From the NCBI RefSeq assembly GCF_964340395.1, contig NC_135561.1:10649232-10713231 (forward strand): a stretch of 64,000 nt of DNA, read 5' to 3'. The DNA comes from Glandiceps talaboti. Its lineage: Eukaryota; Hemichordata; Enteropneusta; Spengelidae. Both the position numbers and the translations under genes were made by a program. Below the pieces are notes generated by a model. The model made no database searches and was not told where the DNA came from. It saw only the letters and a list, made by a program, of their open reading frames with translations. This document shows positions 8,901 to 31,478 of the stretch, in pieces (the first letter of the stretch is position 1; each line of letters begins with the position of its first letter).

Positions 8901-11900
8901 CAGTCTTTCTTGTAACAGGTATTGGAAATTGTCAGAAACCTGATGATTTTATGACTGAATAAGTTTCGATACGGAGACGAGAGAGAGAGGGGAGACGGAG
9001 AGAGAGAGAGAGAGAGAGAGAGAGAGAGAGAGAGAGAGAGAGAGAGAGAGAGAGAGAGAGAGAGAGAGAGAGAGAGAGAGAGAGAGAGAGAGAGAGAGAG
9101 AGAGAGAGAGAGAGAGAGAGAGAGAGAGAGAGAGAGAGAGCGGAGACCAAACTAGAGTCGGTACTCACCCCACCACGACATATGCATTTTTGTGATTTTG
9201 AAACGATAAAGAATGTTAATATGGATATTGGGACGATTGGAAATCGGACGATGTGAATCGTAATCGAATATCTCAGACCATCCACAATATATGTCGTGTT
9301 GACTTAGGCGATCCCAGAAACCATTCTTAGTTTACCCCTTTCACATATATTATCAACCATGCTAATGTTTTGAAACAAATCTCGATTAACAGGTAATTTA
9401 GCGCTTGAAAGATGGCGACGTCCATACCCCCCCCCCCGGCTGCACATATTTTAATATGCAATTATACATTACCCCCTCCCCATACACGTCAGAGAAGTAC
9501 AGTATGGTACACTATATGACACACTGTAAGCTAACAGTGGAAATCAACTTCAGTGTCCATACATATCAGACATAGAGATTTCTTTACAAATGGATGTGGG
9601 CTCATTGGGCTGTAACCTGTACTTGGAAAAACTTAACCAGCAGAGTTTTCTTTTTGAATCCTATGTCTTGACAGAAACGGCACCCCCCTTCGATAACTAG
9701 TGGGGAGGGTGTGTCCCCCTCCCACAGTAGGCAATTGTTTGAAAAATAAGGACATGTAGGAGGCCATTTAGCGGCATAATATTTCAAACCATACACATTA
9801 TTGGAAGCCATAAAGTACTTGAAAATTGTCTTCAATACCCAAATTGTACTCTCATTAAATTATTTTACAACTGTATTACCTACGCTTTAACTAATACATA
9901 GATATTTTGGCAGACACACACATTCGTTTGGCCATTGGCTGCCTAATAATTAAATGTGTGGTAGGTAAATGAAGTGAACAATTTTGCAAAGTACAAGGTA
10001 AACGATTGCTCCTGTGGTTTGAATGTTCAACAAAGTCTCCACACAGAGAGATAGAGCAAGAGAGAAGGAGACATACGGCGACGAGAGAGAGAGAGAGAGA
10101 GAGAGAGAGAGAGAGAGAGAGAGAGAGAGAGAGAGAGAGAGAGAGAGAGAGAGAGAGAGAGAGAGAGAGAGAGAGAGAGAGAGAGAGAGAGAGAGAGAGA
10201 GAGAGAGAGGCATACACTTATACAAATGTAAATTTACTTGGTAAACAACTGCTCCTGAGGTTTAATTTTGGTTCAAATCATGAGCAGAATATTCGGGGGC
10301 CCTTTCAGACCATCACAATTGTCATGCCCCCCTCCCTTTGAACCTCAATTTTGTTCATGCCCCCCCCCGTAAATTCTGACTCCAGCATAATTTCAAGTTT
10401 ATTCCGAGCTCGGTATTACAGGCATTCGACTAGAGTCTTTATACCTCAAAGATATACAACAGTCCATTTCTGTACAAGGCATATCAGAAACCAAACATTT
10501 GCAGTGTGGAGTGTCACAAAACCCTGTGCTTGGTCCACTCTTACACGCGTATGCTGTCTATACACATCACCACTTGGAAAGCTAATCCGACATCAAAATC
10601 TCAATATGCAACAACATGCAGACGACAACCAGATTTACCAATATATTTCCCCAATCACATACGTCAACTACAGTAACTAAGATGGAAACTGTTGCACATG
10701 ATATTAAACGACCCAAAATAAGCTAGTTTAATGATGGCAAAACCGAGGTCCTCCTTATCACGTCTCAGTTCAACAGGCTTCCTCGTCTCATGAACCACAT
10801 CAACATGGGATCGTCTTCTGTGCAGTTAGTGGATTCAGCATGTACCATTTGTGTAACAATTGATGACCGTTATAACCTCAAGAAGCACATCTCGTTGACA
10901 TGTAGATCAGTTCTTTTTCACCCCCGAACAATAGGTCGCATCATTGACAGTGGAGGGGGCCCCTCCACTGTCTATGGTCGCATACGCCAGTATCTTACAA
11001 ACGGAGTTTGTCAGAACCTTGGTCATGCACTTATATCATCGATACCTGACTACTGAATGGCCCTTCTGTATGGGCTGCCAGCTAAAAACATTGTCCCTCT
11101 TGAACATGCCCAAAATACAGCAGCTAGGATTGTGTCAGGTACAAAGAAAACAGATGACGTCACATCGGTTCTTTCAATAACACAGTTTAGTTAGAAATCA
11201 CACTGGCGTCAAGTGCAGTTACATAATATACCAGTAGGTAGGGCCTACATGTACATGTAGTCTCAGGTCACTACATTGTGGTCTGAGATGTAGTTTACAC
11301 CACTATGACCTAAGAACTTGAACCAGGGCTGAGGAGAAGTGGTCTGAGGTTAAAGTTTTGCAGCTCTCGTTCAGCAATCTCAAAACATTTCAGCCTACTT
11401 CCCGTAATGAACACTTGTCAAGCATTTTTGTAGCTCCCATACTCAAAGACTACATATATGTTTATATACGACTCAAAATATAACACTGAAATTTACTTTG
11501 AACACGTTCAGTTTCAGTAGACCTATTAAAACCCAAAATCTCCACTGTATAATTTAATATCGGTAATAGTTTACAGTCAAAAACTTTTAAATTTAGTTTT
11601 GACTAGGAGGTCCCCAAGTTTTGCAAGTTGACTCATGACCGCAATCATTGCTTTACTCGCTTGAGCTGCAAGCGCTAAATACCATAGACCACTGCTTGAC
11701 ATAATCACGCCTAGATATTCATAAAAAGCGAACAACGTCGAGTTTATGACCACCAATAACCACTTTTCAATTTTCTTAAGAATTTCATCTCTTAGTAAAT
11801 ACAATAATTTTAGTTTTGACATACATGTAATTTACTTTCAAAAGACAATGTTAGAAACCCCTACCCCATTGATTCCTGTGGGAACATGCCTTTCGTGAAG

Positions 11901-28567: not shown

Positions 28568-31478
28568 ATGGAAGCAATAGTCCAGCGAGTAGAAAAACAG
28601 TTTCAAAGATACGTAGAAGCCCTTGGCACCACTGTCAACGCTGATATGGATCTGAGTTATGGGAGACCGGAACTATCGATTGATGCTGCAAGAAAACTCT
28701 TCAACAACCTGACTGGACTCTCCGTCGATGAAATCAAGGAATTTGACAGCTTCTGGGACCGTAATTTCTACATTTCGTCTACAACCAACCAGCATTCCCT
28801 TCACCTTGTCATGAAAGTTCTAAGCGCAACTGATTCACTCAATTTACCATTCGTTCAAGGACTTATCCAAACCTTACTATATTTAGGTGATAAGGGCATT
28901 AATTGTCCAAAACCAGTAAAAGTAATGGATGGTACATACATCTCACATCAGCAATTTACAGGTAGGTTTATAACCAACTAGAATGCAAATAATGCAAAAT
29001 ACACCAAGTGCAAACCTTGGGTCGGTGCTCAAGGTCAAAGTTTAGTTACAAACCATGGACTCTACTCGAGTAGGGCCTCTAAACCGAGTGCTTCTATTTA
29101 TAGCTAATTGAGGTCGTCACGGTGCACGTACGTGATGTCAATCACACTCAACACAATGTATATATCTCTTCAAATTTAGAGTAGGTCAAAGTATAGACTA
29201 GAAACAGTCCATGGCCTTCGGAGATTTTTTTTGTCTCGCAATCTTTAAATGTTTTGAATTGGTATTCATTTCAAATTTTGTAAAGGGAAATATGGTCAAC
29301 ATTTTTTTTTTCCCAGTTACTAGTAGCCTCCCAAGGAACTGGTGTCAGTCACCAGCGCTCAGATCATATCGACCTGAAATGTGGTCCCTAGACAGCTAAC
29401 AAAGCAAAAATGATAGACAGGTTCACAGATTGCTCTAGCCAATCAGACGAGAGGGTACTAAGACTAAGGTTGCTATATATGCAAATTAGTCATAATATTT
29501 GCACCTGACCTGTCTGTCATTTTCTGTCACTGTTTAGTGACCACGTGCACATTTCAGGTTGATAACATTTGAGCACTGGTGACTGACACCAGTCCCTTGG
29601 GAGGCTACTAGTAACTGGGGAAAATAAAAAAACAGGTTGAAAACATTTTCCTCCCAAATTTATAACAGACACACACATACATACATACATACATACATAC
29701 ATACATACATACATGCATACATACATACATACATACATACATACAGACAGACACATAGACTGACACACACACACGCACACACACGCGTACATGCACACGT
29801 ATGCGCGCACGCACACACACACACACACACACACAATACCTGATGGGATGTGTCTCTATATATGATTGTACCACAGACAGTGGAGAGAACCTACTCTGTG
29901 ATTGTACATGTTTTCAGATTAATTGTATTGTCATAAATGCATAACAATTATGTTATGAATATGAAACAAAATTAATGATATTAACCACTTTAACTTGTTA
30001 TTACTTATTCCTAGAAACACAACACCATGCAATATATATGCAGACCTACATGGAAGGTTTACCAGTAGGGACATTAGATGATGCAATATCTCCATCCTTT
30101 GCCTACAGTGGAGGTGTTTTCCTTGGAAATATGGACAATGCACTCAAGGTAAATACAGGAGTTGTATCACAGAGGTGTGGGTTGTTATTGTAAAATCAAT
30201 GGTGCTGTCTTCAATATATTCACATGTTTTGTTTCCATATGAAATAGAGTTTTTTCTAAAAAATGTATAGTTTTAGGAGTTTGTGGCAATTGTTTAACAA
30301 ACAACCTAGGCCCCCTAAAGAAAATTCTCCTAAAAATTGTAATTTGACATAGTAATTTGTACAGCATTTATTTATGTATTACTTAATAATTTCTGTTAGA
30401 AGAACAAAATGTATACACCATAGACATCGATAGATTTATTGGTTTCAAAGTTTGCCTACATGTTTACTTATTGAAGTGTATAGGAAACTTAAGTAAGCTT
30501 CCTGATCTCAGTGGGATGTTGATAAGTTAACACTGGCCATCCATGCATTTGCCTGTCAATGAAGTACTGCAGTTGACTAATTTCCATAATGTTGTTGCTC
30601 TGTGCTGTTTATCTAATTAGGATTTCTGTCATCATGGATTTGAAAATAAGCGATCGATCTGGGGACTTGAGACTGTACCAAACTTAAAACATCACCTACA
30701 TCTAGTCGAAGATGAAGAACAACGACAGTTAGCAGCATCAACCATTCAGTCATTTGAAGACAAAGTGATTCCAAATTACAAAAGTATACAAAGAGGTAAT
30801 AATGTGATTGTCATACCTAATATTATGTTTGTGATATAGTGTAATTAAGAATGTGTAATGGGATTGTTATTGTATTTATAATAACAATGTTTTTACACAT
30901 TTCTTGCTTTTTGCAATTGTTTGAGTTACAAATATGGACTTTTTTCACAATGTTTTTTTTTCAAATACAATTATATCTCAAATAAATACCCATTTGTCAT
31001 CCATGTTGTCTCTTTGACATAAATATCAAATTTTCATTTTTTGTATTTTATTTTCCTGGCAGGTATTATACATGGAGACTTCAATCCTCATAATGTAATA
31101 GTTGAATTTAACAAGACCTCTTCTGCAAACGAAAGTTCTCCTGAGAAATACCACATATCTGGCATCATTGATTTTGGGGACACAGTATACTCCTGCTATT
31201 TATTCGAAGTTGCTATAGCAATATCTCATTTTATGATGGCATGTCCGAGCAAGGATCGTGTATCAGTTGGTGAACAGTTTAAAGCTGGTTTTGAATCCAA
31301 GTTTATCCTCAATGATTGTGAGAAGACACTGCTGGATGTGTGCATTGCAAGCCGAGCTGTGATGATAATAATAATGTGTACCAATGAACTCAAGAAGCAA
31401 CCAGACAACGAATATGTCAGAAGCTATGTAGTGTTAGCATGGGAAATCTTGAGGTTAATGGATAGTAAAACAAAGTGA
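28568..31478 (+). CDS. HYKK: Hydroxylysine kinase-like protein, copy C (4 exons)
   Basis: Coding exons are 28568-28961, 30015-30148, 30621-30795 and 31063-31478, giving 1119 nt or 372 residues with a clean frame and GT-AG junctions in phases 1, 0, 1. The start is the ATG giving [20 protein letters not shown], which lines up with copy B. Catalytic motifs are HGDFNPHN (H238, D240) and IDFGD (D271). Exon 3 opens [17 protein letters not shown]. Exon 4 and the first several hundred bases after the stop are nearly the same as in copy D, so C and D are the youngest duplicates or have undergone gene conversion. Poly(A) signals AATAAA are at 31734 and 31745. The gene looks intact. Confidence 0.92.
29676..29744. 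repeat. (CATA)n microsatellite with (AC)n extension
   Basis: About 17 CATA units, continuing as CAGACA and then CA-rich DNA to about 29835. It lies in copy C intron 1; a related CAGA/CA tract is at 38866-38912 in copy D intron 1. Confidence 0.93.
29872..29900. mobile_element. Micro-palindrome P2 (29 bp), exact 7-bp target duplication
   Basis: CACAGACAGTGGAG at the left, ending CTCTGTG. Flanked by ATTGTAC at 29865-29871 and 29901-29907. A shortened relic with the left ATTGTAC flank survives at 38961-38977 in intron 1 of copy D, so this insertion predates the C/D duplication. Confidence 0.83.

Follow-up and report, generated by a model that had tools for sequence, protein, structure and literature searches.

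What are the short palindromes that lie scattered, between direct repeats of 7 bp, over a stretch of 64,000 nucleotides of the genome of Glandiceps talaboti (C14:10649232-10713231 in a 590-Mb assembly; in the following "the window"), and how did they arise? These palindromes, called P2, have ends related to CATAGAC...GTCTATG. Judged from the sequences, they are very probably excision footprints of P-superfamily DNA transposons, i.e. the parts of both transposon ends that remain between the two copies of the target-site duplication (TSD). The distribution of some footprints is best explained by later copying within host repeats or tandem arrays.

Palindromes and their 7-bp duplications

All six P2 copies named in a preliminary description were present at their positions (10942, 13319, 15499, 19323, 29872 and a worn copy at 18230), and it was verified that four have exact 7-bp repeats, i.e. 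GTCGCAT (10942), GTAAAAC (15499), ACTAAAC (19323) and ATTGTAC (29872), and that the copy at 13319 has a 6/7 repeat. The ends had been described as fixed and turned out to be less so: the copy at 10942 begins with CATTGAC and that at 13319 with CATGGAC, the copy at 29872 reads CACAGAC...CTCTGTG, and the copy at 19323 finishes with TTCTATG. In a strict test, which tolerated no more than one mismatch per CATAGAC end and per 7-bp duplication, four sites of the window were retrieved (10942, 13319, 15499 and 19323; 18230 and 29872 were not among them), while 146 shuffled 7-mers yielded a mean of 0.02 and a maximum of one site. It was confirmed that the P2 palindromes are real and occur beyond chance. 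They are listed here together with further candidates (families A and B are the putative parents described below):

10942..10976, minus strand: candidate 35-bp footprint with family A ends (17+1+17), TSD GTCGCAT, inside a dispersed host repeat
13319..13350, plus strand: candidate 32-bp footprint with family B-like ends, TSD ATCAAAC/GTCAAAC (6/7)
15499..15522, plus strand: candidate 24-bp footprint, left arm family B (15 bp), right arm CTGTCTATG, TSD GTAAAAC, within a repeated segment
18230..18259, plus strand: worn candidate 30-bp footprint, TSD GTCTAAC/ATCTAAT (5/7)
19323..19358, plus strand: candidate 36-bp footprint (17+2+17), end variant CATAGACAATAGAGAGG, TSD ACTAAAC
29872..29900, plus strand: candidate 29-bp footprint, left arm CACAGACAGTGGAGAGA, TSD ATTGTAC
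38961..38977, plus strand: candidate 17-bp footprint, paralogous site of 29872 with another remnant, TSD ATTGTAC/AT-GTAC
1062..1091, minus strand: candidate 30-bp footprint, beginning AATAGACAGTGAAGGGG..., TSD TTACAAG/TTACAAC
23612..23657, plus strand: probable 46-bp footprint with filler, CACAGAC...TTCTGTG, TSD GGTCAAA, a less certain member
38037..38056, plus strand: possible 20-bp footprint, CACACAC...GTCTGTG, TSD GTAAAAT, a weak and less certain member

The length of the duplication was determined with 22 distinct two-sided sites in loci fetched from the assembly (L-numbers), which had been chosen regardless of a TSD. With an assumed duplication of 7 bp the flank identity was 0.786, while assumed lengths of 4-6 and 8-12 bp yielded 0.239-0.364. 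The peak at 7 bp bore out the earlier view that the repeats are target-site duplications. The 7-mers duplicated at these sites tend towards the dyad GTTNAAC.

The window has the look of repeat-rich animal DNA, and the palindromes are not confined to it. The pattern CATAGACN{3,33}GTCTATG was found at 3677 sites genome-wide, versus 201 for the reversed pattern; CATAGACCCTCCACCN{0,24}CTATG had 1207 matches on both strands (control 0), and CATAGACAGTGGAGG with at most two mismatches had 5198 (control 636), all of these counts including copies within host repeats and tandem arrays. Such scars appear to number thousands in this genome.

Transposase-bearing elements with the same ends

It had been proposed to look for longer elements that share the P2 ends, and such elements were found; they encode a P-superfamily transposase. 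The P-type RNase H transposase domain PF21787 had at least 13 matches in the genome and none in 14 control genomes. One copy is complete: C19:16466610-16476276 (L084 and L081) comprises 9667 bp, has identical 36-bp ends and is bordered on both sides by GTTACTC, and this family, A, thereby shows the combination of terminal inverted repeats and a 7-8 bp TSD that is characteristic of the P superfamily. Its 750-aa frame matched PF21787 at 2e-23. Over 6.7 kb, the transposase loci of C14 and C19 share 99.5% identity; the similarity ends at most 4 bases from CATAGACAGTGGAGGGGAGAAGG, and the DNA beyond differs (one end was compared for the C14 copy, and both ends were recovered on C19 only).

The transposase of a second family, B, matched PF21787 at 2.2e-25. 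The main frames of A and B share 46% identity, and five blocks on the transposase strand, the main frame included, are conserved between the family A element and family B; the last block, QDPLESYFGNQR in A, is 67% identical to B over 89 aa. The end of family A reads CATAGACAGTGGAGGGG..., and that of family B reads CATAGACCCTCCACCAAC... or CATAGACCCTACACCAAC...; both end stretches that bear a P-type transposase. In the family B transposase locus L083 the end is CATAGACCCTACACCAACAGGATACGC, and one end was recovered from that copy. L082 contains CATAGACCCTCCACCAACATGATACGC, followed 4.1 kb further on by an inverted match, with the flanks CCCATAT/CCCATAC. A parent carrying the end variant AATAGAGAGG, as at 19323, was not found. 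The solved Drosophila P transposase, 6p5a, was the only hit in a sequence comparison; the match is weak (E 0.045), and its best stretch lies over the D(2)H region. A THAP DNA-binding domain was not matched in the 750- and 721-aa frames, and it could be encoded by a separate exon. Both P-type loci contain a second frame on the strand opposite to the transposase (L081:461-1483 (+) and L083:695-1702 (+)); these frames of 340 and 335 aa are 39% identical and had no Pfam match.

Several searches were negative. At C1:27319081 (L044), the first transposase locus found beside an end match, no intact element was seen, and a 23-bp scar lies at 6045. No 7-bp TSD with a terminal repeat was present in any of the 13 transposase loci of about 3 kb, because at least one element measures 9.7 kb. 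A first scan of larger transposase loci for TSDs of 7 or 8 bp yielded no bounded element, because one end fell outside.

The stems of the palindromes had been regarded as arbitrary, with only the ends being important. This view was not upheld, because the stems correspond to shortened terminal repeats of the related parent families A and B; what had appeared as free variation resembles fragments of sister-family terminal repeats. These matches also bear on the idea that the palindromes are conserved functional sites, i.e. protein-binding sites or RNA hairpins, with flanking repeats that arose by chance. Their palindromic form and high copy number would be compatible with such a role. However, the sequence of the palindromes is that of transposon ends, the interiors lack conservation, and the flank identity has a sharp peak at 7 bp, which makes a functional origin extremely unlikely.

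Truncated arms and probable excision

To determine how far the palindromes follow the transposon ends, the 36-bp repeat of family A was compared with 39 distinct contexts in which its first 15 bp (CATAGACAGTGGAGG) recur. The identity stopped at position 15 (4 rows), 16 (5), 17 (11), 18 (8), 20 (7), 23 (1) or 36 (3). The three full-length rows are ends of transposase-bearing elements, which had been fetched via the transposase and not via the end. Outside element ends, 35 of the 36 family A contexts stop at 15-20 bp and one at 23. GGGGAAA, perhaps an end variant, stands in seven of the eight rows that stop at 18. The preliminary description had called for a check of whether the flanking repeats exceed chance, and they do: a TSD with at most one mismatch was present within 12-74 bp in 25 of the 39 rows (swapped flanks: mean 4.3, maximum 11), and an exact TSD in 14 (mean 0.5, maximum 4). 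In the scars L005, L053 and L057 a single arm of 15-18 bp lies between exact duplications, and in L044 a 17-bp arm followed by ACTATG is flanked by two copies of TTTAGAC.

Arms that stop short of the repeat end, one-armed copies with both duplications and differing junctions are the form expected of scars made by cutting and rejoining. According to extracts of two papers, the Drosophila P transposase cleaves 17 bp within the terminal repeat (PMC7776569; PMC10983969). The starting point here would be an element like the complete one of 9667 bp, with 36-bp repeats and a P-type transposase, between 7-bp target duplications. Cleavage of the 3′ end would fall on the boundary of the element, and the opposite strand would be cut some 17-20 nt further in; in this way the element would depart and 17-20 nt per end would remain on the host DNA. 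End joining would then fuse the remnants, often with trimming of one of them or with added filler, and yield the order TSD, partial left repeat, partial right repeat, TSD. With about 17 nt left per end, joining should give palindromes of at most about 34 bp between both duplications, apart from trimming or filler, and 10942 (17+1+17) and 19323 (17+2+17) fit this directly. As in a footprint, a TSD is kept in 25 of the 39 sampled rows, and the ends are truncated near the depth of such a staggered cut in 35 of the 36 contexts outside element ends.

It had also been assumed that the palindromes are mobile units, i.e. micro-elements of 24-36 bp that are themselves mobilised in trans. They do have TSDs, and their outer ends are like those of autonomous elements. 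Nevertheless, the arms end within the 36-bp repeat of the parent, the interiors and junctions differ between copies, and the one-armed L005, L053 and L057 retain exact TSDs, which is not expected if the palindrome moves as a whole. Miniature inverted-repeat transposable elements (MITEs) would have complete terminal repeats and a common interior; truncated arms, differing interiors and one-armed copies were found instead. Furthermore, P elements also have internal transposase-binding sites, as stated in the extract of PMC7776569, and a palindrome of 30 bp is too short to contain them. Mobility of the palindromes themselves was therefore not supported and is very unlikely.

The size distribution bears on another alternative, i.e. 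that the palindromes are extreme internal-deletion derivatives from interrupted gap repair, and thus very short elements rather than end-joining scars. Gap repair following P-type excision is indeed not always efficient (PMC4168063, in extract). However, a continuum of sizes would then be expected. The matches listed in the first 6.1 Mb of C1 included 50 two-sided places of 17-47 bp; 49 were measured, leaving aside a 46-bp match that overlapped another one, and 44 of these were at most 36 bp long, with a median of 29. The 48-78 bp class numbered 543 genome-wide (control 74) and consisted, among the matches listed, mostly of adjacent units of tandem arrays; on all 35.9 Mb of C1 it had eight places beyond the arrays at 12.31 and 31.99 Mb, one of which (2910261) is a two-unit tandem. 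The drop of the two-sided class of C1 above about 37 bp, with sizes counted up to 78 bp, and the narrow depth range of the arms in the 39 sampled contexts make internal deletion very unlikely, a little more so than mobility.

Several observations weigh against the interpretation as excision footprints, or against a uniform cut at 17 nt. The depth limit and the drop beyond 20 bp come from the sampled rows. The 39 rows are partly dependent: one array contributes five and a tandem pair two, and there are two arms of one palindrome and two copies of one host repeat. In 14 rows no TSD with at most one mismatch was present in the searched range; of these, L080 and L084 are full element ends, and the other 12 are individually unexplained and could represent larger losses, array or repeat copies, or something else. 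Two of the 25 TSDs, 61 and 69 bp along, sit in the next tandem unit; the hit of L081, itself a full element end, must be due to chance, as may further hits with one mismatch. The arms have no clean limit of 17 bp: seven rows from six loci match to exactly 20, palindromes of 20+20 occur at L049 and in at least four abutting pairs among the matches listed, and family B arms reach at most 18 in the 49 measured strings. Because 20+20 palindromes occur, the cut depth is perhaps 18-20 nt in some families, and the stagger of this transposase would lie at 17-20 nt. In addition, the sequence relation of the transposase to the solved Drosophila P transposase is weak (E 0.045), and no pair of an occupied and a scarred copy of one site was found.

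Two paralogous sites of the window carry different remnants. The site at 29872 reads ATTGTAC, 29 bp, ATTGTAC and ATGTTTT, and that at 38961 reads ATTGTAC, CATCCCCACTCTCTATG, ATGTAC and ATGTTTT; the upstream flanks are 82.5% identical over 63 bp. The left arm is better kept at 29872 and the right arm at 38961, and neither remnant can be a simple deletion of the other, because each retains more of a different arm. One old insertion may have been duplicated with the gene and then excised twice, which would be supportive of excision rather than decisive, as a single case with diverged flanks. The duplicated gene segments at 25500-31400 and 39300-41000 contain conserved exon-like blocks and allow the comparison of paralogous sites.

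Probable later copying, related palindromes and known systems

Not all P2 copies are independent insertions, because 10942 and 15499 sit in near-identical repeated stretches: the former recurs with its flanks at 99-100% identity in L001, L045-L047, L059 and L063, and the stretch around the latter is 99.0% identical to L066 over 802 bp. The window segments 10400-11500 and 15100-15900 are present elsewhere on C1 at 99-100% identity, each with a palindrome. At no fewer than nine places on C1 a family A match and a 24-bp family B match are 4.5-4.6 kb apart, as in the window, where 13319 sits between them; the flanks of 13319 had no match among the fetched loci. Such scars would have been copied passively, and others would have expanded into tandem arrays, the unit of which can equal the scar plus one TSD. 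Units of this kind are present at L008 (31+7), C2:5596562 (30+7) and C1:31992178 (28+7); the unit at C1:12313471-12314703 is 26+11, an exception to this rule. Footprint units in tandem were seen at L008-L024, L048 and the latter three positions on C1 and C2. The arrays suggest that scars seed minisatellites, by a simple path from transposon excision.

The preliminary description had also noted a second family, P1, with the same overall design, and P1 palindromes indeed have 7-bp TSDs, too. Those with ends CTCAGACCAC or near lie at 3739-3760 (TSD 6/7), 11262-11287 and 23407-23438, and at 22101-22278 lies an element of 178 bp whose ends match and whose TSD is GTTCAGA. P1 thus probably comprises a sister group of scars and one short element. 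A motif like AGTGGAGGTGTAAATGGTAACGATA adjoins several palindromes (window 12358-12396 and 19375-19413, L001:87-126, L056); near 19370 and 12358 it is possibly subterminal sequence of a parent.

Excision scars have mostly been studied singly in reporter assays. With apparently thousands of scars and an identified parent, it might be possible to infer from sequence alone how deep a P-type transposase cuts and how the host tends to join ends. It is quite possible, without our calling it probable, that this genome holds a dense natural archive of transposon excision, with thousands of P-type scars versus at least 13 transposase-domain matches, in which cut depth (apparently 18-20 nt, not 17, in some families) and repair outcomes can be read for each site and TSD-flanked scars have repeatedly seeded minisatellites. 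Repeat annotation could mistake the palindromes for tiny MITEs, or overlook them, and thus miss much of the past activity of the family. A literature search revealed no report of genome-wide P-type scars in titles and abstract openings, most subscription journals being outside its coverage.

Excision of the P element of the fly leaves scars of a similar sort, and its terminal repeat also begins with CAT. Common to both systems are a P-type transposase domain with a D(2)H motif and a cut deep within the terminal repeat, at 17 nt in the fly (PMC7776569, in extract). In contrast, the fly element has an 8-bp TSD (extract of PMC10983969) and a 31-bp repeat, versus 7 and 36 bp here, where arms reach up to 18-20 bp in some families and scars are very numerous per genome. 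Galileo, of the P superfamily in Drosophila, shares the 7-bp TSD and a preference for palindromic targets, its target being GTATTAC versus the GTTNAAC-like lean here (PMC4168063, in extract; the word "footprint" is absent from its main text). Zebrafish Pdre2/THAP9 is likewise P-type, and its 13-bp repeat begins with CATA; unlike here, its TSD has 8 bp, and excision by the fish enzyme gave bigger flanking deletions in reporter assays (all from the extract of PMC10983969). Taken together, the kind of scar is already known; what would be new is its scale here, along with the short duplication and the depth.

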